The notes under the pieces are model-generated. The model saw nothing but the letters and a program-made list of their open reading frames with translations. It was not told where the DNA came from and ran no database searches. DNA of 25,547 nucleotides from a virus, in the IMG/VR virus record IMGVR_UViG_3300042549_007921, positions 1-25,547 of that record; one strand, given 5' to 3'. Below are positions 2,337-24,109 of this stretch, in pieces. The translations under genes and the position numbers were made by a program. Position 1 is the first letter of the stretch. Each line of letters begins with the position of its first letter.

Positions 2337-2354
2337 TAAGTCACCGTTTACTTA
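2337..2354 (-). promoter_or_regulatory. 18-bp palindrome copy a, putative operator
   Basis: Read in the direction of the downstream gene it is TAAGTAAACGGTGACTTA. The right half matches the consensus exactly. On the minus strand a TAAATA hexamer overlaps its outer edge, with TTAACC 16 bases further upstream, a weak sigma70-like promoter. The gene at 2334 begins two bases beyond it. Confidence 0.7.
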
Positions 2355-2707
2355 TTTAATCGATTCTTGATTTTGGTTAACATGACGCTTAGGTCTGCAT
2401 TATCGAGATCAAGAATCTCTTGCATAATACCTTTGCCTCTTAGTTGAGCCATTAAAGCATTTCGAGTTTTGGTAAGACGATCAACTTCCATCTTTGCCTT
2501 GGCATGACGAATTTTCTCAACCAGCATTTCGTCATTAGGGTTGAATTGAGATACCCACATACCACATAGAACTGCCTGAGATACGCCTAACTTCTTAGCC
2601 ATAATAACGATCATGTTTTTTGTTTCAAGAGTAATTGAGGCACGCATGAAAATCTCAGGTACTTTCTTTTTAATCTTCTTTTTCTTCATCATTTTCAATG
2701 TCATCAT
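2348..2707 (-). CDS. small basic protein, possible ribbon-helix-helix DNA-binding protein
   Basis: Up to 119 aa with a lysine-rich start (MKKKKIKKK from residue 6). A short strand-like RASITLE precedes a helical region (NMIVIMAKKLGVSQAVLCGMW), which loosely fits a ribbon-helix-helix or CopG-type fold. A second helix pair fills the C-terminus. No family is firmly recognised. The start is uncertain: ATGs at 2707, 2692 and 2647 are all possible and none has a good Shine-Dalgarno sequence. The first start overlaps the upstream gene by 38 bases. The stop region runs into the palindrome at 2337-2354. Confidence 0.55.
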   Translation of the reverse strand: MMTLKMMKKKKIKKKVPEIFMRASITLETKNMIVIMAKKLGVSQAVLCGMWVSQFNPNDEMLVEKIRHAKAKMEVDRLTKTRNALMAQLRGKGIMQEILDLDNADLSVMLTKIKNRLNK

Positions 2708-3149
2708 AGTTTATATTTTTTGACGTAAAGGCTAATCCCTTTGTATGTAATAGCCTTTCAAGCTGTCTTCCATACACTCCTTCGTTGACGATCTTTTCAA
2801 ATAACTCTTTTATCTCACTGCTTTCTGGTTTTATATCATCACTGTCCTTATTTTGACGTTTGATTAATCGACCTTTAAGCATTTTTAAATATATTCTTTC
2901 CTTTCTTACTCTTTCAAAGCGATTGGATGCCACATTCCAATTATTAGAGCCGATGGTTGCGCTGGTTATTGCTATTTCGATAAACCGCGCTTCACTGATG
3001 TCTAAATTTTTAGCAAAGTCTTTAATCAATGAGGTGGCATAGGCGGAAATACAAGCTTGAACTGGTAAACGTATAACATCGTCATAACTCACTTTATTCC
3101 AGCCAGTCATGATGGCTTTTCTATTGCCCTTTAATGTCTTCTTATTCAT
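2670..3149 (-). CDS. hypothetical protein downstream of helicase
   Basis: A 159-aa basic protein with an acidic C-terminal tail (DDIENDEEKED). Residues about 26-60 (RLPVQACISAYATSLIKDF.., ISEARFIEIAI) are helical and resemble the layout of the next gene, so the two may be distant relatives or partners. No family is recognised. Its ATG overlaps the helicase stop in an ATGA junction (3146-3149), so it is translated by coupling and belongs to the helicase operon. A role in replication or recombination is possible from context only. Confidence 0.6.
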   Translation of the reverse strand: MNKKTLKGNRKAIMTGWNKVSYDDVIRLPVQACISAYATSLIKDFAKNLDISEARFIEIAITSATIGSNNWNVASNRFERVRKERIYLKMLKGRLIKRQNKDSDDIKPESSEIKELFEKIVNEGVYGRQLERLLHTKGLAFTSKNINYDDIENDEEKED

Positions 3150-4600
3150 AGATTAAAATTGAAATCAGATCCAGTTGGCAATATGCCTTGAGCAAATCCA
3201 TTGGTTGATTCTATGATGGCGCGTCTTGTGGCTGAATGTAGTCTGAGGTGCTTATTGAATTCATCAGCAAAATCAATGATGTAGGCAATATTAGCAACTC
3301 TTCCCGTCTTAGCTCTAAGCCCTCTGCCTATGCGTTGACGTAAAGCTACTTCTGCTTTGCCACCACCTGCTAAAACAATGACACCCACAGCGGGAACATC
3401 TACACCCACATCTAAAATAGTTGAACCTATTAGCGCATCTATTTTCCCAACCTTTAACTTGTCGAGTGCAGACTTTCGCTCAATTTGAGAACGCTCACCG
3501 TACATGAACAAACACTTAACCCCGATCTTAGTGAGCATTTCTTGTAAATGTGCACCATGCGCTTTGTGCTGTACGAGGATCATCGACTTCAGACCGTACT
3601 TTGTCGCTCTTTCAACTTCAAAGATAATGGCTTTATTTCTGAACTCATTTTCAACGATACCGATACGATAAGCGGATTGCCATGAAGTAGTTTTAAATAA
3701 AAATCGAGGTTTTTCTGTAGATATGAATTTGAAATAAGGCTTTGCGAGAATCCCTCTTTCGATAAGCGTGTTTTCATCGACATGAATTCCCACTCCACCT
3801 ACAGCCGCATGAAGTCGCATATTGTCTTCGCCATTTGACTTCATAAAGGGTGTAGCGGTAAGAGCTAGTCGGTAATTTGCATTGGTGCAGAGTTTTAGAA
3901 TTTCATAATAGCTATTACCGCTAATTTCGTGCGCTTCTTCAAGAATAACGAACTCAAACTTTTCCAAAAGACGTTTGGTTTGCTCGACTCTAGCGGGGTC
4001 TTTTAACATAGAGGCAAATGTTTGCACCATGCCTACATTGAAGCCTCTTTTGATAGATAGATTGCCGTCACCGATAACACCGACCTTTTCGCCCATACTT
4101 TCAAATGCATCTTTCATTTGATACATTAAAACACCGCGTGTCGTTAAGAACAGGGTCATTCTATTGATGCGTTTATAGGCTAATTTTGCAATTCTCGATT
4201 TCCCACCACCTGTTGCAACATGTGCAACCATTCTGCCTCGATCTTCCAAATGGCGAATGGTTTCAATTTGATAACTGTAGCGTTCCTCTTCAGGGAAGTT
4301 ATCGACTTTGGGATGATAGTCTCCTAACGGCTCAGGTAGTGATTTCTTAATCAGTTGTACGATATGACCTTGCTTTTCAAGCAAGGCTTTGATGTGCAGA
4401 GCAAAGCCAGCAGGGAAGGTCGCATCAGTCATTTTGAAGAACGAAGAGATACCCGACCAGTTGCCTGATTTGAACTTGTCGCTGTACTCAGCACCCTCAA
4501 CCTCGTAAGACAAAGCATCAGAAACAAATAGCTTAACGTCTCTAGTAGGGTTGGGTATTTTTGCCTTTACAGCATTTGATAGTATTTGAATAACTGCCAT
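3146..4600 (-). CDS. superfamily 2 DEAD/DEAH-box helicase (UvsW-like)
   Basis: A 484-aa nucleic-acid helicase. Motif I is ATGGGKS (129-135), motif II is EEAH (221-224), motif III is TAT (248-250), and motif VI is QRIGRGLR (422-429). Motif V-like GVDVPAV lies at about 399-405. The first 100 residues form a separate domain with a NWSGISSFF segment, as in UvsW/RadD-like phage helicases that remodel branched DNA. The catalytic D of motif II is replaced by E, common in this group. It is the first gene of the leftward block and diverges from the ParB-like gene. The start is not preceded by a Shine-Dalgarno sequence. It probably acts in phage DNA replication or recombination. Confidence 0.9.
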   Translation of the reverse strand: MAVIQILSNAVKAKIPNPTRDVKLFVSDALSYEVEGAEYSDKFKSGNWSGISSFFKMTDATFPAGFALHIKALLEKQGHIVQLIKKSLPEPLGDYHPKVDNFPEEERYSYQIETIRHLEDRGRMVAHVATGGGKSRIAKLAYKRINRMTLFLTTRGVLMYQMKDAFESMGEKVGVIGDGNLSIKRGFNVGMVQTFASMLKDPARVEQTKRLLEKFEFVILEEAHEISGNSYYEILKLCTNANYRLALTATPFMKSNGEDNMRLHAAVGGVGIHVDENTLIERGILAKPYFKFISTEKPRFLFKTTSWQSAYRIGIVENEFRNKAIIFEVERATKYGLKSMILVQHKAHGAHLQEMLTKIGVKCLFMYGERSQIERKSALDKLKVGKIDALIGSTILDVGVDVPAVGVIVLAGGGKAEVALRQRIGRGLRAKTGRVANIAYIIDFADEFNKHLRLHSATRRAIIESTNGFAQGILPTGSDFNFNL

Positions 4601-4651
4601 TGATAATAAGTATTTGTTTTAATAGGTATTTGATGATAGCATCATATATAG

Positions 4652-4669
4652 TAAGTATCTAGTGACTTA
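4652..4669 (+). promoter_or_regulatory. 18-bp palindrome copy b in the divergent early promoter region
   Basis: TAAGTATCTAGTGACTTA, located between the divergent helicase and ParB-like genes. A -10-like TATATA (4645-4650) ends one base before it for rightward transcription, without a good -35. A degenerate half-site (TAAGTATTT, 4607-4615) sits before the helicase start. One operator region could therefore control both early directions. Confidence 0.7.
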
Positions 4670-4686
4670 ATTATACGATAAATAAA

Positions 4687-5349
4687 ATGGAACAGACGAA
4701 AAAAATAGACATTACCTATCTTAGCCCAGAATTACTTGTTAGTAACCCCTGGAATTCCAACGTCATGAGCTTGGAAAATGAGACGAAGCTGGCGGAAAGC
4801 CTGAAACGCAATAACATGTACGATGCCATTATCGCAAGGCAGTTGTTCGATGGCAGCTATCAGATATTAGGTGGCGAACATAGAACAAGAGTGGCAAAAA
4901 AGATTGGCATATTGGAGCTGCCTGTTATTGTTCTTAAAAATATAAGTGACAATCAAGCCAAAGAAATTAGTCTAACGCACAATGCACGTTATGGGGCTGA
5001 TGATAGTCTTAAATTATCAGACCTATTAAACTCTTTAGATGATGCCAGTATTCTGACTGACATTATGCCCTACAGCATTATTGAGATAGAAACACTAATG
5101 TCTGCCTCAAAAATAGATTTCGACAGCCTTGTAGGTCTTGATTTTGATGATGATGAGATTGACGAACTAAGTGAGAAAACATTTTTACCAAAGACGCATA
5201 CCATCATGCGTTTTAAAGTATCCATAGAGGATGCTGCCTCAATTGAGGAGATGTTAAAAGAGACAATAAAGATCAATGGCTTTACAGAAAGCGATGCACT
5301 GACCAATGCAGGTGACGCATTAGTACATTGCTTGCTAAGTGAGGCTTGA
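4687..5349 (+). CDS. ParB/Srx-fold nuclease-like protein 1
   Basis: A 220-aa protein with an N-terminal ParB-like domain. The NPWNSN stretch (20-25) and the GGEHRTRVA box (62-70) correspond to the conserved NP-x-N and GxHRxxA motifs of the ParB/sulfiredoxin fold, which binds CTP or ATP and includes phage DNA-binding and nuclease-like members. The C-terminal half is acidic (DFDDDEIDEL) and unassigned. It lacks the partition helix-turn-helix of true ParB, and no ParA gene is present, so plasmid-type partition is unlikely. A second ParB-like gene lies 320 bp downstream, followed by an ABC-ATPase/GNAT fusion. The start lies 17 bp after palindrome b and has no Shine-Dalgarno sequence. Confidence 0.85.
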   Translation: MEQTKKIDITYLSPELLVSNPWNSNVMSLENETKLAESLKRNNMYDAIIARQLFDGSYQILGGEHRTRVAKKIGILELPVIVLKNISDNQAKEISLTHNARYGADDSLKLSDLLNSLDDASILTDIMPYSIIEIETLMSASKIDFDSLVGLDFDDDEIDELSEKTFLPKTHTIMRFKVSIEDAASIEEMLKETIKINGFTESDALTNAGDALVHCLLSEA

Positions 5350-5353
5350 TGAG

Positions 5354-5527
5354 ATGGATAAAAGAAGTTCTATTGATTGCAAGAGCTGTGCTAACCGACG
5401 ACATCAGAAGATTTGCGATATGTGTCGCTATGGAGAACTGTTTGTGGAAAGGGAATCGCTCAGATTTGACGATCAAAGAGAGTCACCCGAATACCCCAAC
5501 GACTACGAGATAGATAATGATCATTAG
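5354..5527 (+). CDS. small zinc-ribbon-like protein
   Basis: A 57-aa protein with two CxxC pairs, C9-x2-C12 and C21-x2-C24, spaced as in a small zinc ribbon, then an acidic, unstructured tail (ESPEYPNDYEIDNDH). The start at 5354 is preferred over a GTG at 5339 because the latter lies inside the ParB-like gene without a ribosome site, whereas GAG and TGATGAG precede 5354. Such knuckles bind nucleic acid or proteins in many phages; the partner here is unknown. It is packed directly after the ParB-like gene. Confidence 0.55.
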   Translation: MDKRSSIDCKSCANRRHQKICDMCRYGELFVERESLRFDDQRESPEYPNDYEIDNDH

Positions 5528-5530
5528 AAG

Positions 5531-5548
5531 TAAGTCATTGGTGACTTA
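5531..5548 (+). promoter_or_regulatory. 18-bp palindrome copy c, putative operator
   Basis: TAAGTCATTGGTGACTTA, a perfect 7-bp dyad (TAAGTCA/TGACTTA) around TTGG. It starts three bases after the zinc-ribbon gene stop. Upstream hexamers are poor (GATAAT at 5513-5518, no -35), so a promoter here is not evident from sequence. Confidence 0.7.
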
Positions 5549-5564
5549 TGGTTATATCCATCAC

Positions 5565-5669
5565 ATGTCGGAGTTCGCAGTTGCAACGCTATGTATATTT
5601 CTATGGCTTTCAATCTTGTTCATGAACTCAATTATTACCACCTTTAATAAAGTAACTTGTAGGAAGTAG
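5565..5669 (+). CDS. possible 34-aa single-span membrane peptide
   Basis: An open frame from ATG 5565 to TAG 5669 encodes MSEFAVATLCIFLWLSILF at its start: one hydrophobic span (about residues 4-27) then a short basic tail (NKVTCRK). It ends three bases before the next ParB-like start, the packing expected of a real small gene, and fills most of an otherwise empty 145-bp gap. It has no Shine-Dalgarno sequence. Function unknown. Confidence 0.35.
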   Translation: MSEFAVATLCIFLWLSILFMNSIITTFNKVTCRK

Positions 5670-5672
5670 ACA

Positions 5673-6308
5673 ATGACGGACAAGAGTTCAGAAATTCTTA
5701 AAATTGAATCATGGGATATTGAAAAGATTATTCCCTATGAGAATAATGCCAAGATTCACACAGTAGAAAAGGTTGCTAAATTAGCCAAAACCATCAAAGA
5801 GTTTGGCTTTAATGTACCTATTCTTATTGATGAAGCTGGCATCATATTGGCAGGTCATGGTAGACGTTTGGCGGCACTCAAGCTTAAGTTCAAAAAGATC
5901 CCTGTCATCGTTAAAAGAAATCTTACCGAAGTGCAGAAGGGTGTCTATCGAATTGCTGATAATAAAGTATCTAGCAATGACTATGACGACACATTATTGG
6001 CAAATGAAATTAGAGAGTTAATGATTGAATCAGAACGTGAGTTATTGCTTTTGGATGCAGAATTATTTGGTATGGAGCCTATTGAGTTAGGCTCTATCTT
6101 GGAAAAGTTCTCCACCGATGACATTGGCATGATGTTACCTGATATGGATGATCTCAGTGACATAGAAAAGCCTAAAGCCGTTGTCAAAGATGTCGAATAT
6201 GAAAAATCATATGTGGTATCTATTAAATGTTCAGGCGAAGCGGAACAACTTGAGCTGTGGAAGCAGCTAAAGGCTGATGGTCGTGACTGTAGCATTATGA
6301 CGATGTAA
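5673..6308 (+). CDS. ParB-like N-terminal domain protein 2
   Basis: A 211-aa protein with a clear ParB N-terminal domain: IIPYENNAKIH (19-29), a helix with LAKTIKEFGF, VPILID (48-53) and the AGHGRRLAALKL box (60-71). Proteins of this type occur widely in phages next to DNA methyltransferases or other modification enzymes. The C-terminal part is acidic and unassigned. A Shine-Dalgarno AGGAAG sits before the ATG. It ends two bases before the ABC-ATPase/GNAT gene, so the two are probably co-translated and work together. No ParA partner is present. Confidence 0.9.
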   Translation: MTDKSSEILKIESWDIEKIIPYENNAKIHTVEKVAKLAKTIKEFGFNVPILIDEAGIILAGHGRRLAALKLKFKKIPVIVKRNLTEVQKGVYRIADNKVSSNDYDDTLLANEIRELMIESERELLLLDAELFGMEPIELGSILEKFSTDDIGMMLPDMDDLSDIEKPKAVVKDVEYEKSYVVSIKCSGEAEQLELWKQLKADGRDCSIMTM

Positions 6309-6310
6309 TT

Positions 6311-7411
6311 ATGCCAAAATTTACTCATAAGTTAGAGATAGACTATAAACAATCCTTTCGATCAGCCAGTATTGAGGGTATGTTTGACGTACCCATTGAA
6401 AAGAAGCTATCAAAGTCATGGGAAGTTGATATGCCCATCGAGAATGAGGAGTGGTCTATCGGTTTAATCGTGGGACCCTCTGGCTCTGGTAAAACCACTA
6501 TCGGTAAAGTGGCTTTTCCAGATGCTAAGTTATTTGACGGTTCACGTCATGAAAATTGGAATTCAAATTGTTTTGTAGATGACTTTGATGAAAGTCTTCA
6601 GGTGCAGGACATTGTAGAGGCTTTATCAAAAGTGGGATTCAGTTCTCCACCTAATTGGGTACTGCCATTTTCTGTACTTAGCAATGGTCAGAAATTTAGA
6701 ACAGAAATCGCTCGTTTAATTTTGGAATCTGCACCTGGCGAAACCATTATGATTGATGAGTTTACATCGGTAGTGGATCGAAAGATTGCCAAAGTATGTT
6801 CATCTGCCGTACAAAAGATGGTTCGCACATCAAATAGAAAACTGGTTGCCATCTCTTGTCATTACGACATAGCCGAGTGGTTAGAGCCTGATTGGATTTA
6901 TCATGTCGATACCGGTGAATTTAAAATCACTAGGGGGTTACTTAAGCGACCATCTATCGAACTCGTCATACGCAGGGTACATCACTCTGCATGGGGAATT
7001 TTCAAAGACCATCATTATCTAAATGCGTCAGTTAATAAGTCTGCACATTGTTTTGTGGCATTTTTGGATAACGAACCTGTCGCATTTTGCGCTGCCATTC
7101 CTTTTCCACACCCTACTTTGAAAAATATGTGGCGAGCGCATCGAACGGTTTGTTTACCTGATTATCAGGGCGTAGGGATTGGTAACGCTTTTAGCGAAGC
7201 CATTGCTCAGCACTTTATCGATCAAGGTAAGCGCTATTCAAGTGTAACCAGTCATCCATCGATGATAGCTCATCGCATACGTTCAAAAATGTGGGTTATG
7301 ACTCGAAAACCTGGACGTGTTCCTGTTAATGGCAAAACAGGTATGTTTAAAAGTTCAGCCAATAGAATTACCGCCTCATTTGAGTACATCGGAGAAAAGA
7401 GTGAGTCCTAG
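6311..7411 (+). CDS. ABC-ATPase fused to a GNAT acyltransferase domain (possibly Mom-related)
   Basis: A 366-aa two-domain protein. The N-terminal ABC ATPase has Walker A GPSGSGKT (55-62), a signature-like LSNGQ (123-127), Walker B TIMIDE (145-150) and the switch His H184 in ISCHYD. No membrane segment is present, so it is not a transporter. The C-terminal domain (about 215-335) is GNAT-like, with acyl-CoA loop QGVGIG (286-291) after a RTVCLPDY strand. An HHY motif (234-236) and SHPSMIAHR (314-322) are further marked stretches. Mu Mom, which modifies adenine in phage DNA, is also a GNAT-fold protein, so a DNA-modification role is a reasonable inference beside two ParB-like genes. A tRNA or protein acyltransferase is the alternative. 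Confidence 0.85.
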   Translation: MPKFTHKLEIDYKQSFRSASIEGMFDVPIEKKLSKSWEVDMPIENEEWSIGLIVGPSGSGKTTIGKVAFPDAKLFDGSRHENWNSNCFVDDFDESLQVQDIVEALSKVGFSSPPNWVLPFSVLSNGQKFRTEIARLILESAPGETIMIDEFTSVVDRKIAKVCSSAVQKMVRTSNRKLVAISCHYDIAEWLEPDWIYHVDTGEFKITRGLLKRPSIELVIRRVHHSAWGIFKDHHYLNASVNKSAHCFVAFLDNEPVAFCAAIPFPHPTLKNMWRAHRTVCLPDYQGVGIGNAFSEAIAQHFIDQGKRYSSVTSHPSMIAHRIRSKMWVMTRKPGRVPVNGKTGMFKSSANRITASFEYIGEKSES

Positions 7412-7412
7412 T

Positions 7413-7535
7413 ATGTTTGACATTAATGTGGTGGTTTCGATTTTCAGCTATGGGTGTGCGTTTTATCTTTTAGCTATTTATTCAGGGCATTTTGGTAGCT
7501 ACGATGATGACGACGATGATGATAGTCATGCGTAG
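7413..7535 (+). CDS. small membrane protein with poly-aspartate tail
   Basis: A 40-aa protein with one hydrophobic segment (VVVSIFSYGCAFYLLAIYSG, about residues 6-25) and a C-terminus of seven consecutive Asp. Its ATG is one base after the ABC-ATPase/GNAT stop, suggesting coupled translation. The Asp codons are alternating GAT/GAC, so the run is not a simple mononucleotide slip. No family is recognised. Coding status rests on spacing and the membrane-peptide character. Confidence 0.5.
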   Translation: MFDINVVVSIFSYGCAFYLLAIYSGHFGSYDDDDDDDSHA

Positions 7536-7570
7536 ACCCGTTTTAAGCTTGTTTTTTGCTAAACATAACG

Positions 7571-7588
7571 TAAGTTACCGCTTACTTA
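7571..7588 (+). promoter_or_regulatory. 18-bp palindrome copy f, putative operator of the winged-helix gene
   Basis: TAAGTTACCGCTTACTTA. A CATAAC hexamer (7564-7569) ends one base upstream and a TTTTAA (7541-7546) lies 17 bases further up, giving a weak promoter with the palindrome over the predicted start. The winged-helix gene begins 43 bp downstream. Confidence 0.65.
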
Positions 7589-7631
7589 TTATCGAAGCGT
7601 CAGCAAGCTCTACTTTATTAGGATTAATGCA

Positions 7632-7913
7632 TTGAGAGTCACTAAGAAGCAAATATTACTGCTGATAGCAATCAGAAAGGGCGGAGAGTTAGGTGAGTTT
7701 CCCGACATCGATCAGGTATTGCTTAATTTAGATTATGAAACCAGTAAAGCGTCAATACAGTTTTCAATCCGCGCATTAATTAAAAATAACTGGGTTGCTA
7801 AGCAAGAATTAGAACCGAGAAGAGGTCAACACAGACGAGTTTTATCACTAACACAAGAAGGCTATCGTATTGCAGAAGTCCACTCTAAAACGCAATCCGC
7901 TGATGTTGAATAA
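7632..7913 (+). CDS. winged-helix DNA-binding protein, candidate regulator
   Basis: A 93-aa protein that fits a small winged helix. Helices span about 1-30; ETSKASIQFSIRALIKNNWV (36-55) looks like the recognition region; a basic wing (EPRRGQHRRVLSLTQEG, 61-77) follows, as in MarR/PadR-like proteins. The start is a TTG: an upstream ATG at 7627 hits a stop at once, and TAGGA lies 9 bases before the TTG. It is the only clear winged-helix regulator in the window and has palindrome copy f in front of it, so autoregulation through that site is possible. It sits directly before the packaging genes and could control late expression. Confidence 0.7.
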   Translation: MRVTKKQILLLIAIRKGGELGEFPDIDQVLLNLDYETSKASIQFSIRALIKNNWVAKQELEPRRGQHRRVLSLTQEGYRIAEVHSKTQSADVE

Positions 7914-7914
7914 A

Positions 7915-8006
7915 GTGCGGACACGTTTTCGTTTCTTATATTCTCTTATTATTAATAAGCAGTTAAGAAAATGTATATATAGAGAGATCGCAAAACGTAC
8001 CCGCAC
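7915..8006. repeat. imperfect inverted repeat upstream of terminase, candidate cos/pac site
   Basis: GTGCGGACACGTTTTCG (7915-7931) is matched by the reverse complement of CGCAAAACGTACCCGCAC (7989-8006): two mismatches and one single-base gap over 17-18 bases. The 57-bp spacer is AT-rich. The pair lies 42 bp before the small terminase gene, where packaging sites are commonly found. Its role is inferred from position and dyad symmetry only. Confidence 0.4.
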
Positions 8007-8047
8007 TAGACTCAGCCGCTTTTATTTTAACACTATCGGAAATTGTA

Positions 8048-8731
8048 ATGGATGATGAAAACCTAGAAGGAATTACTCGAAATAGTACGGTTAAAAAATC
8101 GACTAAGACAGGAAAGACACGACTTAATAATCATCAATGGGGAGAACTCATTGCTTTGCTAAAGACAGGTCATTATACGCAGACACAGTTAGCGGAAACC
8201 TATGGCGTGTCAGTTAATGCTATTTTGACGAAGCGAAAGAAGTTAGGTGGCATCAAGATAGGTGAGTCATCAACTGAGAAGACTACCTTATCCGCTATCG
8301 ACAAAACAGTGATGGCAATGGAAGGTGCTATCGGATTTAGCACAGTAGAGGCAGGTCGTTTAATTACTGAAGCTAAGCGAGAAACCTTCAGACGCGGTGA
8401 GTTAATAGGGAAGTTAACTGAACATGCTATGACTAAAGCCTTTAGAGAGGGTAATGTCGATAGTATCAAAGATACGGTAAAGGTGTTGCTAGACTGCCAA
8501 GCGTTATTTGAAAAGCAGTTACGTTTAACAGGATTATGTTTGGGCTTTGAAAATGGTCGCTTTGATACAGCGGCAGATGCACCCGTGTTAACCATTGTCA
8601 AAATGACAGATGCCGATATAGCTGCCGTACAAGATCGCTTTAGAGATGACAGCAAGGATGATGATGAGAACTATATCGATGATGGCGATTATGAGGACTA
8701 CGAAGAAGATGAAGATGAGGGTGATGAGTGA
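8048..8731 (+). CDS. terS: terminase small subunit-like protein
   Basis: A 227-aa protein. After a basic start, residues about 28-62 form a helix-turn-helix (QWGELIALLKTGHYTQTQLAETYGVSVNAILTKRKK) typical of terminase small subunits that bind the packaging site. A helical middle (about 75-175) would build the oligomer. The C-terminus is extremely acidic (about 200-227, mostly D and E) and may contact the large subunit. It overlaps the large-subunit start by four bases (GTGA). Identification rests on the HTH, acidic tail and adjacency to TerL. Confidence 0.8.
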   Translation: MDDENLEGITRNSTVKKSTKTGKTRLNNHQWGELIALLKTGHYTQTQLAETYGVSVNAILTKRKKLGGIKIGESSTEKTTLSAIDKTVMAMEGAIGFSTVEAGRLITEAKRETFRRGELIGKLTEHAMTKAFREGNVDSIKDTVKVLLDCQALFEKQLRLTGLCLGFENGRFDTAADAPVLTIVKMTDADIAAVQDRFRDDSKDDDENYIDDGDYEDYEEDEDEGDE

Positions 8732-9951
8732 TTCAGTTACACCCCAAACAACATGAAGTATTTCATGATAAGACGCGATTTAAGGTAGTAGCGGCAGGCA
8801 GACGATGGGGCAAGTCGATGCTATCGCAGGTATCGTTGATTGATAAAGCGATAGAGAAAGGGGGGCGTTTAGTTTGGTATGTTGCGCCTTCTTATCGTAT
8901 GGCAAAGCAGATCATGTGGGATGACATGAATCGTCTGATACCTGATAAATGGATTAAGCGTAAGAATGAAACCTTTATGCGAATTGAGTTAATTAATCAA
9001 TCCGTTATTGAGTTAAAAGGTGCTGACAATGAAGATAGTTTGCGAGGTGTTGGGCTTGATCATTTGGTAATGGATGAAATGCAGGACATGCGCCCAGGCG
9101 TGTGGCGAACTGTGTTAAGACCTACCCTGGCGACCACAGGTGGAACAGGTTTATTTATTGGCACATCTAAGTCCTATAATCACTTTTATGATATATGGTC
9201 AAAGGGAATGTCAGGGGAATCAAAGGCTTGGAAGTCGTGGCAATTTAAAACGATCAGTTCACCCTTTGTTCCTGCTGAAGAAATAGAACAAGCTCGGCAA
9301 GATATGGACCCTAAAACCTTTCGTCAAGAAATGGAAGCCTCTTTTGAAAGTATGGCAGGGCGTGTTTACCACACCTTCGATAGAAAGCTACATGTCGGTA
9401 ATTATCCCTTTAATCCGAAGTTACTGATTTATGTAGGGCAAGATTTCAACATCGATCCGATGAGTAGTGCTATTTTTCAGATTCAACCGAATGGTGAGAT
9501 ATGGGCGGTAGATGAAATCGTTTTATTCGCCTCCAATACTCAAGAAGTCTGTGAAGAGTTAGAGAGAAGATATTGGCGACATCTAAATCAAATTACCATT
9601 TACCCAGATCCAGCAGGCGGCGCGAGACAACACGCCAGAGGCGAAACTGATTTGGATATATTTAGGGAAAAGGGCTTCAAACGTATAAAGCATCATCGCA
9701 AGCATCCAAGAATTGCTGATCGAGTTAATTCTGTCAACAAGATGCTACTAACTGCTGATGGGTCTATCAGAATGCGTGTGGACAGCAAATGCAAGCACAT
9801 TATTGATTCACTAGAGCAAACAATTTACAAAGAGGGTGGTCGTGAAATAGATAAAGCAATGAGCGTAGAACATATTACAGATGCGGCAGGTTATTTCATT
9901 CAATATGAATACCCTGCGAGAAAAATTGAAATTGCCGGACTTTCAATATAA
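8728..9951 (+). CDS. terL: terminase large subunit
   Basis: A 407-aa packaging motor with ATPase and nuclease domains. Walker A is GRRWGKS (24-30), Walker B LVMDE (113-117, D116/E117), and the coupling motif FIGTSKS starts at 143. The nuclease domain opens with YVGQDFN (D239) and continues with YPDPAGGARQ. The start is a GTG overlapping the small-subunit stop, supported by the immediate start of the conserved LHPKQ segment. It cuts and pumps phage DNA into the prohead through the portal encoded next. The promoter for the portal block lies inside its 3' end. Confidence 0.97.
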   Translation: MIQLHPKQHEVFHDKTRFKVVAAGRRWGKSMLSQVSLIDKAIEKGGRLVWYVAPSYRMAKQIMWDDMNRLIPDKWIKRKNETFMRIELINQSVIELKGADNEDSLRGVGLDHLVMDEMQDMRPGVWRTVLRPTLATTGGTGLFIGTSKSYNHFYDIWSKGMSGESKAWKSWQFKTISSPFVPAEEIEQARQDMDPKTFRQEMEASFESMAGRVYHTFDRKLHVGNYPFNPKLLIYVGQDFNIDPMSSAIFQIQPNGEIWAVDEIVLFASNTQEVCEELERRYWRHLNQITIYPDPAGGARQHARGETDLDIFREKGFKRIKHHRKHPRIADRVNSVNKMLLTADGSIRMRVDSKCKHIIDSLEQTIYKEGGREIDKAMSVEHITDAAGYFIQYEYPARKIEIAGLSI

Positions 9952-9954
9952 TAT
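9926..9954 (+). promoter_or_regulatory. sigma70-like promoter for the portal block
   Basis: TTGAAA (9926-9931), a 17-base spacer and TAATAT (9949-9954). The predicted start falls at about 9961, inside palindrome copy g. Confidence 0.65.
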
Positions 9955-9955
9955 A

Positions 9956-9973
9956 TAAGTATTCGGTGACTTA
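9956..9973 (+). promoter_or_regulatory. 18-bp palindrome copy g, putative operator
   Basis: TAAGTATTCGGTGACTTA. It begins one base after a well-spaced promoter and ends 15 bases before the portal ATG, with the ribosome site GGAG between. This is one of the clearest cases of the palindrome covering a transcription start. Confidence 0.75.
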
Positions 9974-9988
9974 CTTTTTGGAGACGAA

Positions 9989-11536
9989 ATGGATAATAGA
10001 GAATTGGCAGCATTGGTAAAAAAGCGACACCCTGAATATGGTTCCAGAGTTGGTCATTGGGATTTTCTTGAGTTGTGTTACGAAGGTGGGCGAGAGTGGT
10101 TTAATGGAAACATTTTCAGATACTTAAAAGAGGGTGATATCGAGTTCAAAGATAGAATAAGCAGGGCTTATCGATTTAACCATTCTAAAGAAATTGTCGA
10201 CTTGGTTTGTAAATATATCTTTAAGTCAAAGATATACAGAAATGAACATAATGCGCCAGATGAGATCGTTAGGTTCTGGGGAAAATCAACAAAAAATGGT
10301 CAATCATCAATTGAGAAGTTTGTCCGTCAAATTGCCAGAGATTCCTCAATTTATGGAAGAATATGGATCGTTGTTGACAATGATAGAGTTGATGATGACG
10401 ATATCTCAGAAGGTGAAGTTGCTAGAGAGTATGCCTATATCGTAAAGCCGCAACATGTATTGGATATGAGCTATGACGATGATGGCGAACTTAATTGGAT
10501 TATGATCGCTGAGACATTTAGAGATAACTCAAATCCATTTTCAAAAAATGATGGCATAAATAGTCGCTTCAGATTATGGACAAAGAATGAATGGTTCTTA
10601 ATCGAAAAGTCTGATGGTAATAGCATTGATGAATCAGGAAAGAATCTTAATATCATTGACGAAGGTGTACATGGTTTAGGAATCGTTCCAGCATTTCCTC
10701 ATGATCATAATGACACCGATGAGCTTTATTCATCACCATCATTGATTTCTGACATAGCTTATTTAGATAGGGCTTGTGCGAACTACTTATCCAACTTAGA
10801 TGCCATTATTCAGGATCAAACATTTTCGCAATTAGCAATTCCTGCACAGGGCTTAATGCCAGGTGAGGAGATGTACAGCAAAATGACTGAAATGGGAACC
10901 AAGCGGATTTTTGGTTATGATGGAGAGAGTGGCGCTCAACCATTTTATCTATCACCAGACCCAAGACAGGCTGAGTTGATCATTACCGCTATTAGCAAGA
11001 TCATTAACGAAATCTATCACACTGTCGGGATGGCAGGTGAGCGTACTAAATCTGATAACTCAGTTGGTATTGATAATAGCTCAGGCGTTGCAAAGGCTTA
11101 TGACTTTGAACGTGTCAATGCTTTATTGACTACAAAAGCGGTTGCCTTAAAACGTGCTGAAATAAAGATGGCATATTTGGTAATGCGCTGGAATGGTAAT
11201 GAAGCTATTAGCGAAGAAGATATTGAGAAGTTCATTACTTACCCAGAAACATTTGATGTGCGTGGAATTAATGATGAATTCTCTATTGCCGAATCACTTT
11301 CGTTAATAGAAGCTCCAATTGAAATGATTCGTCAGCAGATGAAGGTATTAGTAGATAAATTGTTCCCAACCATTGAGGATGTATTGAAAAATGAAATGAT
11401 TACTGCAATTGATAAAATGGAAACTGTCTCTACCATGATGAATGATATCGGTGGGAAGTTGCCAACCGCAATGCCAAATACTGGGTTCAAAGGCAATACT
11501 CAGGGCGAAAATAACAATAACGATTCAGCACTTTAA
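9989..11536 (+). CDS. portal protein
   Basis: A 515-aa protein of the expected portal length, directly after the large terminase. It begins with a segment common in portal proteins (EYGSRVGHWDFLELCYEGG, residues about 16-34), has a mixed alpha/beta core, and a C-terminal part rich in long helices (IEAPIEMIRQQMKVLVDKLF) that would form crown and channel. The last 30 residues are low-complexity Asn/Gly. It forms the twelve-fold ring at the packaging vertex. GGAG precedes the ATG by eight bases. No frame problem is seen. Confidence 0.9.
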   Translation: MDNRELAALVKKRHPEYGSRVGHWDFLELCYEGGREWFNGNIFRYLKEGDIEFKDRISRAYRFNHSKEIVDLVCKYIFKSKIYRNEHNAPDEIVRFWGKSTKNGQSSIEKFVRQIARDSSIYGRIWIVVDNDRVDDDDISEGEVAREYAYIVKPQHVLDMSYDDDGELNWIMIAETFRDNSNPFSKNDGINSRFRLWTKNEWFLIEKSDGNSIDESGKNLNIIDEGVHGLGIVPAFPHDHNDTDELYSSPSLISDIAYLDRACANYLSNLDAIIQDQTFSQLAIPAQGLMPGEEMYSKMTEMGTKRIFGYDGESGAQPFYLSPDPRQAELIITAISKIINEIYHTVGMAGERTKSDNSVGIDNSSGVAKAYDFERVNALLTTKAVALKRAEIKMAYLVMRWNGNEAISEEDIEKFITYPETFDVRGINDEFSIAESLSLIEAPIEMIRQQMKVLVDKLFPTIEDVLKNEMITAIDKMETVSTMMNDIGGKLPTAMPNTGFKGNTQGENNNNDSAL

Positions 11537-11553
11537 TTTAATAGGAAATAAAA

Positions 11554-12390: not shown

Positions 12391-12420
12391 TTGACAATCA
12401 ATTGTTTAAATGGATAATAT
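12391..12420 (+). promoter_or_regulatory. strong sigma70-like promoter for the major capsid gene
   Basis: A consensus TTGACA (12391-12396) is followed by TAATAT (12415-12420, spacing 18) or GATAAT (12413-12418, spacing 16). It is the best promoter match in the window and lies just before the most highly expressed type of phage gene. Palindrome copy h begins at its last base. Confidence 0.8.
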
Positions 12421-12437
12421 AAGTCACGGATGACTTA
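12420..12437 (+). promoter_or_regulatory. 18-bp palindrome copy h, putative operator
   Basis: TAAGTCACGGATGACTTA, overlapping the end of the -10 box and the predicted start of the capsid promoter. A bound protein here would block polymerase. Confidence 0.75.
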
Positions 12438-12557: not shown

Positions 12558-13517
12558 ATGGCTTTATTAAAAACAGTTGCTGGTACTTTAACTAACAATG
12601 ATTTAGTTGCTGGCGTTATCGAAGAAATTATTGATCGTGATCAATTATTTGCTCAAATTCCTTTTACTCGTGTTGATGGTAAAGCATACGTTTACAACAG
12701 AGAAGACCCTTCTTCTTGGGATGCTTTGAATGTTGACGGCTTAGGCAACTCTATTGAACCAGCATTTACTGATGTTGGAACAACTATTGCTGAGAAAGCG
12801 GCTAAAGTTGTTGAAGTAACAACTAACTTACGCACATTGATTGGTGATGTTGATGTAGACAAATTTTTACAATCTGTTTATAGCAACACAAATGACCAAC
12901 GTGCTATCCAAATTGCTCAAAAAGCAAAAGCAATGGGTCGTAAATTCCGTAGAACTTTAGTTCAAGGTAACAACGCTGTTAACGCTCTTGAATTTGATGG
13001 TTTGTATAAATTGTCTTTAGGTAGCTCTGCTCAAACTTACGCCGCTGCAACTGGCGCAAGTGGTCAAGCGATTACATTTGATCTTTTAGATCGTTTGTTA
13101 GATATGATTCCAAATGGTGCTGATGCTATCGTTATGCGTCCATCTACTTTGAGAGCTTATCGTCAATTGGTTAGAGGCTTAGGCGGTACTATTCCTGAAA
13201 GCGTTATGATTCATGAATTTGGTCAAAGCGTTCCTTCACACAATGGCGTGCCTATTCTTATCAATGAATTCCTACCTATCACTGAAACATTTGGTGGTGC
13301 GGTAACAGGTGGAGCGTTAGGTTCTATCTACGGTGTTCGTTTCAACGAAATAGACGGTCTTCACGGTTTATACGGTGGTGATAATGCTGGTATCGTTGTT
13401 GAAGATTTAGGTACTGTTCAAACACTTGATGCAACTCGTACACGTTTAAAATGGTACTGTGGATTGGCTCTTAAATCTACTAAATCATTGGCTCGTATTA
13501 CTGGTGTTCAAGTTTAA
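12558..13517 (+). CDS. major capsid protein (HK97-fold type)
   Basis: A 319-aa protein in the standard capsid position after the scaffold, with its own strong promoter and a terminator behind it. The sequence has features of HK97-fold capsids: an N-terminal helix, an extended loop region (about 35-80), a helical spine (about 100-130, QRAIQIAQKAKAMGRKF) and a beta-rich A/P domain with a late conserved GLALKSTKSLARITG (about 300-315). Codon choice is markedly biased to CGT, GGT and GCT compared with neighbours, as expected for a highly translated gene. A Shine-Dalgarno GGAG precedes the ATG. No N-terminal delta domain is seen, which fits a separate scaffold. Confidence 0.88.
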   Translation: MALLKTVAGTLTNNDLVAGVIEEIIDRDQLFAQIPFTRVDGKAYVYNREDPSSWDALNVDGLGNSIEPAFTDVGTTIAEKAAKVVEVTTNLRTLIGDVDVDKFLQSVYSNTNDQRAIQIAQKAKAMGRKFRRTLVQGNNAVNALEFDGLYKLSLGSSAQTYAAATGASGQAITFDLLDRLLDMIPNGADAIVMRPSTLRAYRQLVRGLGGTIPESVMIHEFGQSVPSHNGVPILINEFLPITETFGGAVTGGALGSIYGVRFNEIDGLHGLYGGDNAGIVVEDLGTVQTLDATRTRLKWYCGLALKSTKSLARITGVQV

Positions 13518-13542: not shown

Positions 13543-13565
13543 AAGGAGTCTTCGGACTCCTTTTT
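13543..13565 (+). terminator. rho-independent terminator after the capsid gene
   Basis: AAGGAGTC, TTCG tetraloop, GACTCCTT, then a T run. The 8-bp stem with a UUCG loop is a strong intrinsic terminator. It separates the heavily transcribed capsid gene from the connector genes, which restart behind palindrome i. Confidence 0.9.
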
Positions 13566-13589: not shown

Positions 13590-13607
13590 GAAGTCATTAA
13601 TGATTTA
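13590..13607 (+). promoter_or_regulatory. 18-bp palindrome copy i, putative operator
   Basis: GAAGTCATTAATGATTTA, the most diverged of the ten copies. TATTAT (13582-13587) ends two bases upstream without a clear -35. It lies between the terminator and the ribosome site of the next gene. Confidence 0.6.
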
Positions 13608-13619
13608 TTGGAGTTTGGT

Positions 13620-14087: not shown

Positions 14088-14089
14088 CG

Positions 14090-14926
14090 ATGAACACTTA
14101 TTATGATGGTAGTTCTGCAAGTATAGAGATCAATCTCTCTTATGAAGACGGGTCACAGGTTGATGTAGCGTCCATTACCTATAGTCTATTTGATGAAAAA
14201 GATGTGGCTCTCATATCAAATACACCATCGTCAACTTTTGTTTACGGTGATGCAACTGTATCGATCGTCATCCCGTGGACGGGAAATCAATTAGGTATTA
14301 AGCAGACAAGTGGCTCAAGAAGATTGTCAGTCAGTGCGGTGACAATGTTGGGTGATGTTGTTAAGTTTAATGAGATATATATCATAAATGGTAACATCTC
14401 TTTGATTTATATGACTAATTCTTACCAAACAATTCAAGAGGCTGAATTAAATGCCTTTAATACTGCAAATATCGATGCGTTTAACTCCGCTTCGTCTGCT
14501 GAAAAGATAACGGCATTGTCAGATGCCTTTAAGCATTTAGGAATGATGACTTATTCAATTGACTATAACTACTTAGGTGGAGCAGTTGATTACATTACAG
14601 AGTACAACACGGGAGCATCTGGAACGTCTATGTCTCAGTTTGGAAGACGTACTGTAATAGTTGATAAGTTGAACTTATTGCCAGAGACTTATATTAGTAT
14701 GTTACCTAGTGCTTTCTTTGCAAAGTTAAAGATTGCCCAAGTGATAGAGGCTAATGAGATTCTAAGCAATAGTGATGGTAGATCAACAGGTATAATTTCT
14801 CAGAAAATTGGTGAGTCATCAATGTCATGGAGACAAACAAAGCCGTTAGCACTTCCTGTTTCAAGAAGAGCATTGGAGTCATTAACAGGTTATCTTCATT
14901 ATGGAAGTAAGCTTGGACACGGTTGA
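14090..14926 (+). CDS. structural protein, probable head-tail adaptor
   Basis: A 278-aa protein. Residues about 1-110 are beta-rich, like an Ig-type fold (SIEINLSYEDGSQVDVASITYSLFD). The rest is helical, including a Tyr-rich segment (TYSIDYNYLGG) and a conserved-looking end (SRRALESLTGYL). Position between capsid and the head-closure type gene suggests a connector or adaptor below the portal. No close family is recalled with certainty. The next gene starts inside its last 26 bases. Confidence 0.55.
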   Translation: MNTYYDGSSASIEINLSYEDGSQVDVASITYSLFDEKDVALISNTPSSTFVYGDATVSIVIPWTGNQLGIKQTSGSRRLSVSAVTMLGDVVKFNEIYIINGNISLIYMTNSYQTIQEAELNAFNTANIDAFNSASSAEKITALSDAFKHLGMMTYSIDYNYLGGAVDYITEYNTGASGTSMSQFGRRTVIVDKLNLLPETYISMLPSAFFAKLKIAQVIEANEILSNSDGRSTGIISQKIGESSMSWRQTKPLALPVSRRALESLTGYLHYGSKLGHG

Positions 14927-15590
14927 TACATTAAATGCTATAGACACTTGCGTTGCAGGCGTTGATGCAACTTATAAGCTTTTTATGACCTCGATCATTG
15001 GTGAATTTCATCGATGTTCATCGAGCAATGTTAATAAGCAAACAGTCAGATATTTTCGTCAATCCTGCAAGCAAATTCAAGCATCTGCGCTGTCTTCTAT
15101 AAATGCTACGCTATGCGATGGGTTAAGAAATATCGAAGCGTCACTGCCCAGTATGATTGTCAAAGACTTTGCTTTGACCAAGACCGATCTTGAAAAAAAA
15201 TTAAAGGGAGCGTATCAAGCTCAGATGTTATTGGACATTGAAGCCTCTCGATCTGACTTGTTTAGATATGCACTGGCGGTCACATCAAGAATTGATCTAG
15301 GCGATAGACAATCGTCCGCAATGATTGCCGCTGACAAATCCGTTAGGTTTAATTTTATCGACAGAGCAGGTAAAAAGTGGAACTCAAGTCGTTACATATT
15401 TACCATCACTCGATTTGAAATCATTAAGGCAATTTATTTTAGCTTTATGTTAGATGCGATCTCTATTGGGGAAACTAAGCTCACTTTGTCAAATGGGTCT
15501 TTAATAGATTTCTCAGAAATTGAAAAATACAGTCACCCAAACTTAAAACTTATACCAATTCAATCAGTTATAAATAAAGTAAGTCATTAA
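14901..15590 (+). CDS. structural protein of the connector region, function unknown
   Basis: A 229-aa protein, mostly helical in the first 150 residues (several Ser/Ala-rich helices, KKLKGAYQAQMLLDIEASR) with a beta-rich end (FNFIDRAGKKWNSSRYIFTIT). It overlaps the previous gene by 26 bases, so translation is coupled. Context suggests a head or neck component; minor head proteins in this place are often about this size. No motif decides it. The stop codon lies inside palindrome j. Confidence 0.5.
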   Translation: MEVSLDTVDTLNAIDTCVAGVDATYKLFMTSIIGEFHRCSSSNVNKQTVRYFRQSCKQIQASALSSINATLCDGLRNIEASLPSMIVKDFALTKTDLEKKLKGAYQAQMLLDIEASRSDLFRYALAVTSRIDLGDRQSSAMIAADKSVRFNFIDRAGKKWNSSRYIFTITRFEIIKAIYFSFMLDAISIGETKLTLSNGSLIDFSEIEKYSHPNLKLIPIQSVINKVSH

Positions 15591-15597
15591 TTACTTA
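15580..15597 (+). promoter_or_regulatory. 18-bp palindrome copy j, putative operator
   Basis: TAAGTCATTAATTACTTA. It overlaps the stop codon of the preceding gene. TATAAA (15569-15574) ends five bases upstream, with no convincing -35. The tail-connector block starts 62 bp downstream. Confidence 0.65.
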
Positions 15598-15659
15598 CTT
15601 TTTAATCAATAGCCTGTTAGAATATGAGTAGGTTTAATAAATAACTTGAGAGTCGAGCA

Positions 15660-16818: not shown

Positions 16819-16844
16819 ACTTAACACTTAAATAGGAAACTAAA

Positions 16845-17699
16845 ATGGCAAGTTCTACCAATAATGTAAAACTGGGCGTATGCTCAATCTTGTACAAAGG
16901 CGTTGATTTGGGTTATACCAAAGGCGGCGTTGATGTTGACGTAACTACTGATACTCATCAAACAATGGTTGACCAATTTGGCGACTCTATCGTTAATGAG
17001 TGGATTACTAAACGTAATATTAAAGTTACTTGCCCATTGGCTGAAACTACACTTGATAACCTAATCGCTATCATGCCTGGCTCAACAATGAAAAGTAACG
17101 GCACAGCGGCAACAGGTACTATTACTATCGCAACTCTACCTCTTACTGGTGAAACCATTATTGTTAATGGCGCAACCATTACTTTTAGAACAGCCGCATC
17201 TAACGCCGCTGAAGTAACTATTGGTGCAACGACAGCAACGGCAGCTACTAACTTGGCAGCGGTTTTAAATGCTTCAGTTGATTCAGGAATTACTCCCGCT
17301 ACTTATGGCAACGCTACTCCAAGTCAAGTATCTGTTGTTTATGATATTAAATCTATTGCTGGCAATGGCTTTACTTTGGCAACGGGTACAGCGGCTGCAA
17401 AAGTAACAATGTCAGGTGCAGTATTAACTGGTGGTGTTGCTGGAACAGTGGTTCGTGTTGACGTAACTAATGGCATAGGCGTAAGTTTATTGGCAACTGC
17501 CGGTGTATTAACTTTGCACCCAATTGCTAATGGCGCTTCAACTGCTGAAGATTTAACTGTACCACTAGCTTCAACCGCTGGTGCGATGAAATTTTCATTC
17601 AAACACAATGATGAACGTATTTTCAATACCGAATTTACTGGCTACCCTGACCCAACAACAAAACTTCTATTCAAACTAGGTGATTTGTTGGCTGTATAA
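16845..17699 (+). CDS. major tail tube protein with inserted domain
   Basis: A 284-aa tail tube protein. The opening (VKLGVCSILYKGVDLGYTKGG) and the closing strand region (MKFSFKHNDERIFNTEFTGYPDPTTKLLFKLGD) fit the tube fold. Between about 88 and 197 lies an Ala/Thr/Gly-rich block (TITIATLPLTGETIIVNGATITF, IGATTATAATNLAAVLNAS) of a type recurring as an add-on in phage structural proteins; it would project from the tube surface. Tube proteins without such a block are near 150-180 aa. Codon choice is biased to GGT, GCT and ACT, as in the capsid gene, fitting strong expression. AGGAAA precedes the ATG. Confidence 0.85.
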   Translation: MASSTNNVKLGVCSILYKGVDLGYTKGGVDVDVTTDTHQTMVDQFGDSIVNEWITKRNIKVTCPLAETTLDNLIAIMPGSTMKSNGTAATGTITIATLPLTGETIIVNGATITFRTAASNAAEVTIGATTATAATNLAAVLNASVDSGITPATYGNATPSQVSVVYDIKSIAGNGFTLATGTAAAKVTMSGAVLTGGVAGTVVRVDVTNGIGVSLLATAGVLTLHPIANGASTAEDLTVPLASTAGAMKFSFKHNDERIFNTEFTGYPDPTTKLLFKLGDLLAV

Positions 17700-17703
17700 T
17701 TAA

Positions 17704-17721
17704 TAAGTCATTAGTGACTTA
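17704..17721 (+). promoter_or_regulatory. 18-bp palindrome copy l, putative operator
   Basis: TAAGTCATTAGTGACTTA, a perfect 7-bp dyad. A consensus TATAAT (17695-17700), formed partly by the tail tube stop region, ends three bases upstream; the best -35 is TTCAAA with a long 19-base spacer. Unlike copy i, a terminator lies downstream of it rather than upstream. Confidence 0.75.
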
Positions 17722-17744
17722 TGACAACTTTATAATTTATATCA

Positions 17745-17774
17745 AAGCCCCTTGTTTTAAAGGGGCTTAACTTT
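17745..17774 (+). terminator. intrinsic terminator between tail tube and chaperone genes
   Basis: AAGCCCCTT, loop GTTTTA, AAGGGGCTT (17745-17768), then AACTTTT. The 9-bp GC-centred stem is strong but the T run is short and offset, so some read-through is likely. It would cut expression from the tail tube gene into the chaperone and tape measure genes, which are needed in lower amounts. Confidence 0.75.
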
Positions 17775-17784
17775 TGAGAATGGT

Positions 17785-18416: not shown

Positions 18417-18448
18417 TAAACGATTGATAAAGACTGGAGCTTGTGACT

Positions 18449-19270
18449 ATGAAGACTGAAATACCTGTTGTCGAATTAAGAGAGTTTAAAATATACAAAT
18501 TAACCTCCCCATCTGGAAAGTCTTACGTAGGTCAGACTTGCAATCTTCGCAACAGATTTTATGGTCACAGGTCTTCATCAAATAGATGTGTTGCTATAGC
18601 AAATTCAATTAAAAAATATGGATTTGATTCATTTTTAAAAGAGGTTATTGCCGATAACCTAACGATTGATGAAGCAAATAACTTAGAGTCTTTTTTCATT
18701 AACGCCTTTAACACAATGGCTCCAAATGGATACAATCTTAGAGAAGGCGGTGCAAATGGAAGAATGTCTCAAGAGTCAAAAGAAAAGATAAGAAAGGGCT
18801 TAATTAATCGCCCAGTTAGTGCCGAGACTAGAGAAAAGATCGGAAATGCAAATAGAGGTTTAGTAAGATCGGCAGATGTTGTTATGCGACATAGAGATGC
18901 TATTACTGGAAGGAAACACTCTCAGGAGCATAAAGATAAGATTTCCGCAAGCGCAATGGGTCATTGCGTTTCAAAACTAACTAGGGAAAAGATTTCAGCA
19001 AGTAATACTGGATATATTACATCAGAACATACAAAGAAAAGACTATCTGATATCAATGCTGGTGAAAAACACCCAAGAGCCAAAAGATGGGTGTTAATAG
19101 ATCCATTCGGAAATGAGCATCATGCCCTCAGTTTGACGGAAATTTGTAAAGAAAATGGATTAAGTGCATCGCTAATTGCGAGAGCTGCAAAAACATCCTA
19201 TAAGCACAAAGGGTGGAAATCATTTATTTTGGACGATTTTATTGAAACAATTAATGGAGGTGTATCTTGA
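18449..19270 (+). CDS. GIY-YIG homing endonuclease (NUMOD-containing)
   Basis: A 273-aa endonuclease. The GIY-YIG domain shows KIY (14-16), YVGQT (26-30), Arg-rich LRNRFYGHR (33-41) and the catalytic Glu E80 in NLESFFI. Residues about 100-200 contain NUMOD3-type repeats (SQESKEKIRKGL, SAETREKIGNANRG, SQEHKDKISASAMG, TREKISASNTG). The end (LTEICKENGLSASLIARAA then HKGWK) is a NUMOD1-like helix-turn-helix. It lies between the tail chaperone and tape measure genes, which are normally adjacent, so it is an inserted free-standing homing gene. GGAG sits nine bases before the ATG at 18449; a GTG at 18443 is too close to it. It carries the ribosome site of the tape measure gene. Confidence 0.93.
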   Translation: MKTEIPVVELREFKIYKLTSPSGKSYVGQTCNLRNRFYGHRSSSNRCVAIANSIKKYGFDSFLKEVIADNLTIDEANNLESFFINAFNTMAPNGYNLREGGANGRMSQESKEKIRKGLINRPVSAETREKIGNANRGLVRSADVVMRHRDAITGRKHSQEHKDKISASAMGHCVSKLTREKISASNTGYITSEHTKKRLSDINAGEKHPRAKRWVLIDPFGNEHHALSLTEICKENGLSASLIARAAKTSYKHKGWKSFILDDFIETINGGVS

Positions 19271-24042: not shown

Positions 24043-24056
24043 GTTATTGATTTAAA

Positions 24057-24085
24057 TTGACGAATCACCTATAACCGTTTATCCT
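24057..24085 (+). promoter_or_regulatory. sigma70-like promoter for the tail-tip block
   Basis: TTGACG (24057-24062), 17-base spacer, TATCCT (24080-24085). The predicted start is at about 24092, the first base of palindrome m. Confidence 0.6.
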
Positions 24086-24091
24086 ACAAAG

Positions 24092-24109
24092 TAAATCACT
24101 GGTGACTTA
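24092..24109 (+). promoter_or_regulatory. 18-bp palindrome copy m, putative operator
   Basis: TAAATCACTGGTGACTTA. It ends six bases before the gpM-like ATG with no ribosome site between, so a transcript from the promoter just upstream would have a 5' leader of about 24 bases. The ACTTATTATTTATG junction resembles ACTTATTATCAATG before the helicase start. Confidence 0.75.

Follow-up and report, generated by a model that had tools for sequence, protein, structure and literature searches.

The 25,547-bp virus record IMGVR_UViG_3300042549_007921 (the window, in whose coordinates positions are given unless another genome is named) carries genes for an integrase, an SNF2-type helicase, two ParB-like proteins, a terminase, a portal, a scaffold, a major head protein and connector/tail proteins, and is probably a fragment of a larger phage genome. 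Scattered along it are ten palindromic 18-bp sites, singled out in an original prediction and, to judge from their sequence, placement and distribution among relatives, very probably the operators of a single phage-encoded lysogeny repressor acting genome-wide. All ten were recovered where that prediction had placed them, against a mean of 0.19 (largest value 2) in dinucleotide shuffles, and a motif-free search for 5-bp inverted repeats returned TAAGT-N8-ACTTA as the top dyad of the window's non-coding DNA, where it occurs 8 times and no more than twice in shuffles. As had been claimed for nearly all of them, every copy is either intergenic or overlaps the final bases of a reading frame. The less clean copies are those at 13590, the weakest, and at 17704, which is separated from the next gene by a terminator-like hairpin. 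The putative operators (no strand assigned) and the features bearing on them are:

2337..2354, putative operator site 1 (TAAGTCACCGTTTACTTA), preceding small minus-strand genes (2334-1899); -35-like GTGACT inside the palindrome, -10-like TATATT at 2322-2317, minus strand
4652..4669, putative operator site 2 (TAAGTATCTAGTGACTTA), between the divergent helicase (4600-3146, minus) and ParB-like (4687-5349, plus) genes; AT-rich -10-like hexamers at both ends (TATATA 4645-4650, plus; TATAAT 4675-4670, minus), one for each of two divergent blocks
5531..5548, putative operator site 3 (TAAGTCATTGGTGACTTA), preceding the second ParB-like gene block (5673-7411); weak -10-like TATGGT at its downstream end
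7571..7588, putative operator site 4 (TAAGTTACCGCTTACTTA), preceding a small gene and terminase block (7632-9951); -10-like TATTAT at 7587-7592, which puts the dyad within the -35/-10 spacer
9956..9973, putative operator site 5 (TAAGTATTCGGTGACTTA), preceding the portal gene at 9989; TTGAAA 9926-9931, 15 bp, TATAAT 9947-9952, expected start site under the dyad
12420..12437, putative operator site 6 (TAAGTCACGGATGACTTA), preceding the major head protein gene; TTGACA 12391-12396, 16 bp, GATAAT 12413-12418, expected start site under the dyad
12558..13517, plus strand, major head protein gene (PHROG 212, E=8e-79)
13543-13562, terminator-like hairpin behind the major head protein gene and before site 7
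13590..13607, putative operator site 7, the weakest copy (GAAGTCATTAATGATTTA), preceding the gene at 13608
15580..15597, putative operator site 8 (TAAGTCATTAATTACTTA), overlapping the stop codon of 14901-15590 and preceding 15660; -10-like TAGAAT ~29 bp downstream of the dyad centre
17704..17721, putative operator site 9 (TAAGTCATTAGTGACTTA), behind an Ig-domain protein gene (16845-17699) and preceding 17785; -10-like TATAAT 17695-17700, terminator-like hairpin 17749-17765
24092..24109, putative operator site 10 (TAAATCACTGGTGACTTA), behind a 1591-residue gene ending at 24042 and preceding the gene at 24116; TTGACG 24057-24062, 17 bp, TATCCT 24080-24085

The major head protein served to collect relatives. 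Portal and head proteins match siphophages and phage-plasmids of ~103-122 kb: SSU5, Cyrano, Klebsiella and Acinetobacter phage-plasmids, Rhizobium phages, and the virulent-type Pseudomonas phages hairong and nickie. Genomes labelled Piscirickettsiaceae/Methylophagaceae, Ectothiorhodospira, Chitinibacter, Magnetospirillum and Xenorhabdus also contain related elements. The motif occurs several times in nearly all of 80 head-protein relatives, typically flanking the head gene closely on both sides; the real half-site has 281 matches among them, and permuted half-sites have 0-10. Long elements carry ~10-46 sites per genome, including relatives whose capsid proteins are just 45-60% identical. Far from being equally frequent inside genes, the motif falls within reading frames in 87 of 428 cases across 17 related genomes or contigs, where chance would give ~370.

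The sites also recur at the same gene boundaries, which the original prediction had made a point on which it could fail. Counterparts were found for nine of the ten in relative G001 (that of site 7 was not found at the same boundary) and for all six compared in relative G002; the 18-mer of site 6 is identical and in the same place in both, and the sites' core identity, at 0.88-0.90, exceeds that of the flanks (0.74-0.81). Cyrano, representing phages whose head protein is ~45% identical, has sites between helicase and ParB genes (at 105108, the position of site 2), before the portal and after the head gene. A 25-bp stretch at 4645-4669, comprising the -10-like hexamer and palindrome of the parB-like promoter, is identical to G002 11236-11260, which lies ahead of the portal gene, as if operator-promoter cassettes had moved between boundaries.

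Half-sites differ by lineage, with TAAGTCA, TCAGTCA, AAAGTCA, TTAGTAAG and TAGGTAAG all represented: TAAGTCA in the window's kin, TCAGTCAG in Cupriavidus, AAAGTCAG in Magnetospirillum, TTAGTAAGC in Acinetobacter, TAGGTAAG/TAAGTAAG in SSU5 and Cyrano, and probably an AATCA form in two Rhizobium phages. A fixed core, AGTMA-N4-TKACT, misleadingly implied that SSU5 lacked sites, until a motif-free dyad search and a refit revealed its drifted form; fixed-core counts therefore did not serve as the final test. A refined matrix, in turn, gave 28 "sites" in hairong that were rejected as over-fitting: they share no clear common dyad, and the motif-free search found none above shuffles.

Promoter geometry was examined in 220 sites oriented by neighbouring genes, with positions counted from the dyad centre. 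TATAAT-like hexamers cluster at -14 to -18, at +6/+7 and at +23 to +29, and the best promoter scores near sites have a median of 8.35, against 6.45 in shuffled flanks. Across the whole window promoter-like matches are no commoner than in shuffles, so single promoter predictions are weak and the argument rests on the clustering. RNA polymerase would cover all three positions, in keeping with occlusion of the promoter by a protein on the site. The proposal of a -10-like hexamer just upstream of the dyad is thus right for some copies, but at 7571 and 5531 the hexamer is just downstream, with the dyad within the spacer, and at 2337 and 15580 it is 23-29 bp downstream, the dyad at 2337 covering a -35-like hexamer. 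Good -35/-10 pairs do stand upstream of 9956, 12420 and 24092, as described; the wider statement that the dyad covers the start site applies to one promoter arrangement of the three.

A candidate for the regulator is provided by a gene for an XRE-type helix-turn-helix (HTH) protein that, in Cupriavidus and Acinetobacter elements, diverges, across a gap that holds palindromes, from a small gene, cobT and moxR. Homologues were found by profile search in 16 complete dyad-bearing genomes, and the Cyrano orthologue CYRAN_45, matched to the family by hhalign (99.5%) and encoded at the same locus as the HTH gene elsewhere, brings the count to 17 relatives. The divergent arrangement, palindromes in the gap, holds in 12 of 12 genomes mapped. 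Some of these gap palindromes score below each genome's strict threshold, as expected either for weaker autoregulatory sites or for looser chance matches. When the neighbouring moxR was used to collect loci, the HTH gene was present at 58 of 80, and several of the others end before its position. HTH_3 reaches 36 bits in the Acinetobacter member (Pfam cut-off 23), with sub-cut-off matches in Cupriavidus and Cyrano, and the nearest solved sequence is the immunity repressor 8bny (E=9e-7). Transcription of CYRAN_45 in E. coli LF82 exceeds the prophage median 10-fold, and the protein is listed as a putative repressor (PMC9928086); 802 plasmid records hold a protein of its type.

The small protein encoded between the HTH gene and cobT has 60-100 residues; its gene stands first, before cobT, and runs in the opposite direction to that of the putative repressor. 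The protein was seen in G005, G009, G012, G013, G019, G020 and G022, in the Cupriavidus and Acinetobacter plasmids and in Cyrano (L325:12827-13039), with a loosely shared pattern, HPxxGxLxxIxNxxGxxxxxL. It is a possible antirepressor or Cro-like partner, playing a part similar to that of Coi in P1.

HTH gene and palindrome tend to occur together. The dyad was recovered motif-free in most HTH-bearing genomes, and both are absent from hairong, nickie, ANB28 and G015, all virulent-type relatives, of which hairong, ANB28 and G015 have kept cobT-moxR; Nickievirus Nican01 is itself predicted to be virulent (PMC11256456). Co-occurrence in 17 HTH-positive against 4 HTH-negative genomes gives a Fisher p of 1.7e-4, for genomes that are not independent (hairong and nickie belong to one genus) and with SSU5 and G006 set aside as special cases.

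The half-site also varies with the protein. Among 50 distinct HTH proteins, a lysine directly ahead of PN in the recognition helix pairs with C at half-site position 6 (median A fraction 0.07, n=28). Other residues go with A more often, the fraction being 0.26 for asparagine and 0.85 for glutamine; the association has a Mann-Whitney p of 2e-5 and persists in phylogenetic independent contrasts (r=-0.39, p=0.005). Other HTH columns show raw correlations with the half-site of similar strength, attributable to shared ancestry, so this co-variation is supporting and not decisive. As for expression in the lysogen, published data list 14 Cyrano genes, 13 of which have no operator upstream.

How might such a system work? 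The repressor would be an XRE/Cro-CI-type HTH protein of ~130-180 residues, encoded divergently from the small gene and cobT-moxR in complete relatives and, in the window's own phage, presumably beyond this fragment. In a lysogen, whether plasmid-like or integrated, a dimer on each site would block sigma-70 promoters, since the palindrome coincides in part with the start site, with the -35/-10 spacer or with the -35 region; direct silencing would extend to structural genes, replication and nucleotide metabolism, and the repressor would limit its own promoter through the local sites. Its loss or inactivation would release all blocks together. The original prediction reached the DNA-binding part of this scheme, which is supported; lysogeny repression and the identity of the regulator lay beyond it.

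Another possibility is that the element works in RNA, as a 5' stem-loop that stabilizes or regulates transcripts in the manner of the promoter/stem-loop units of T4-like phages. A -10 hexamer just upstream of the dyad would indeed put the palindrome at the transcript 5' end; in the spacer arrangement, on the other hand, it is not transcribed from that promoter. Within genomes, 341 sites show 2062 Watson-Crick matches between arms where independent arms would give 2157 (z=-4.4), with no general excess of G-U wobble (170 against 155). The arms do not co-vary, and the palindrome is therefore not an RNA hairpin: the conservation of a stem through compensatory changes that marks the T4-like units is absent here, and half-site changes instead follow a residue of a DNA-binding protein. 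The RNA reading, rejected on these grounds, is very improbable; the original prediction's observation that sequence differences break the dyad without compensation now holds in a 34-fold larger sample, and its preference for a DNA-bound dimer gains both from the independent arms and from a likely cognate HTH protein. The sites are most consistent with binding by a dimer, which might instead be a phage activator, a middle or late regulator switching on gene blocks: sites precede nearly every block, late genes included, and a well-placed dimer could recruit RNA polymerase. Activators rarely sit over the start site or in the promoter spacer, the very positions seen here; good sigma-70 promoters already adjoin several sites, and the virulent-type relatives keep the same gene order without HTH gene or sites, which an essential activator would not permit. 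Activation is accordingly an improbable account, if somewhat less so than the RNA stem.

Two ParB-like genes adjoin sites 2 and 3 and the relatives are plasmids, so that parS-like partition or segregation sites for the window's ParB-like proteins come to mind as well. The sites are, however, spread over ~100 kb at promoters and form no cluster at a partition locus, and hairong has ParB-like genes and no sites; this reading, the least credible of all, was rejected. Closer to operators of one repressor is a mixed function for that same protein, in which most copies are operators while some, flanked by a stop codon and a terminator, impede elongation as the stoperators of phage L5 do. A terminator-like hairpin precedes the next gene after 12 of the 220 oriented sites and after none in shuffled flanks, window site 17704 being among them; that site also has a TATAAT hexamer just upstream, and the palindrome is symmetric, whereas the orientation of L5 stoperators matters (PMC9283540). 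On balance such a division of labour seems unlikely, though clearly less so than the other alternatives.

Several observations count against genome-wide lysogeny operators as the full explanation. The 12 sites ahead of terminator-like hairpins are not explained by promoter blocking alone; the window has no HTH locus; and a domain search found no cleavage or peptidase domain in the HTH proteins. The SSU5 isolate has ~28 sites and no detectable HTH gene, which related plasmids do have; a recent loss is assumed, and the isolate may be a repressor-less derivative. G006 has a strongly diverged HTH protein and no TAAGT-type dyad, with CTATGT-N-ACATAG (e.g. at its positions 13285, 13721 and 99726) in its stead. 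In Cyrano, operators stand at 21 of 68 silent and 1 of 9 expressed operon heads, a contrast in the right direction and not significant (Fisher p=0.43), as many silent heads also lack an operator. A broader proposition is that a small XRE repressor silences nearly all units of ~105-kb phage-plasmids, late operons included, by blocking initiation at promoters and elongation at sites ahead of terminators, and that across alpha-, beta- and gammaproteobacterial hosts a single recognition helix and its 20-40 or so operators drifted in concert, giving rise to separate immunity groups. This can be put forward tentatively, as an idea with the balance somewhat against it.

SSU5 (JQ965645) has a second dispersed palindrome, AAACAA-N-TTGTTT, in ~20 copies (e.g. 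at 81, 30449, 42729, 82468, 88370, 92759 and 94525), also seen in Cyrano. It is often preceded by accaacaaga-like sequence, with start codons a short way downstream, and seems to be a regulatory element in its own right in SSU5-type elements.

Other features of the window lie apart from the palindromes. At its left end is the following gene, the presence of which is consistent with a temperate element:

277..1419, plus strand, tyrosine integrase gene (PHROG 1 integrase, E=4e-58)

A tRNA gene lies ahead of the integrase side (window 20-94 and 122-1419; G001 28016-28629; G002 1-74), and its identity varies between close relatives: Thr, Thr plus Asn, or Ala. These tRNAs could be either phage-borne or marks of differing attachment sites. 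Just behind the integrase gene are two fragments resembling a tRNA or tmRNA T-arm/3' end (1593-1613 and 1698-1710). In the tail region, a GIY-YIG/NUMOD3 homing-endonuclease gene (18443-19270) stands directly ahead of the 1591-residue gene.

If the palindromes are operators as proposed, the result is a concrete lysogeny switch, repressor gene and operator list together, for the SSU5/AB-type phage-plasmid superfamily, whose members occur in hundreds of Klebsiella, Escherichia, Salmonella, Enterobacter and Acinetobacter plasmids. The half-site may serve as a simple sequence marker by which temperate lineages can be told from virulent ones and immunity groups predicted from metagenomes. The co-variation of residue and half-site would be an example from nature of how a repressor and its dozens of sites drift in step.

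Among known systems, the nearest in layout is P1 C1, which has 22 dispersed operators, the repressor's own promoters included (PMC8546580): in both, one repressor would act through some 20-40 operators at promoters over a phage-plasmid of ~100 kb and repress lytic genes. P1 operators, in contrast, are 17 bp and asymmetric (ATTGCTCTAATAAATTT), the sites here being symmetric 18-bp dyads of different sequence; P1 late genes are under the activator Lpa, whereas late structural blocks here bear sites directly; and the candidate regulator here is of XRE type. Phage L5 and its cluster A relatives likewise have more than 20 repressor sites genome-wide, in promoters and short intergenic gaps (PMC9283540), but these are 13 bp, asymmetric, monomer-bound and oriented with transcription, unlike palindromes lying mostly beside promoters. 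Since the site asymmetry that defines both P1 C1 and L5 is lacking, the system seems to work like both and to belong to neither; the L5 parallel drawn in the original prediction is apt for function and not for membership. With Cro/CI (XRE) repressors there is a shared HTH and a gene beside a divergent operon with operators between, the differences being the peptidase domain, which was not found here, and operators that are genome-wide instead of confined to a local switch.

Structural gene order and the cobT-moxR locus are shared with two phage-plasmid groups of Pfeifer and Rocha, SSU5/pHCM2 and AB (PMC11652158), to which the window's phage is a distant relative with low guanine-cytosine content and an integrase; drifted forms of the palindrome occur in the Acinetobacter plasmid pA1296_1, SSU5 and Cyrano. 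No earlier description of dispersed palindromes in these groups, or of their pairing with this repressor, was found in a search of open-access papers. The strategy of dispersed operators is thus already known from P1 and mycobacteriophage L5, and it is this pairing of site and repressor that is apparently new.

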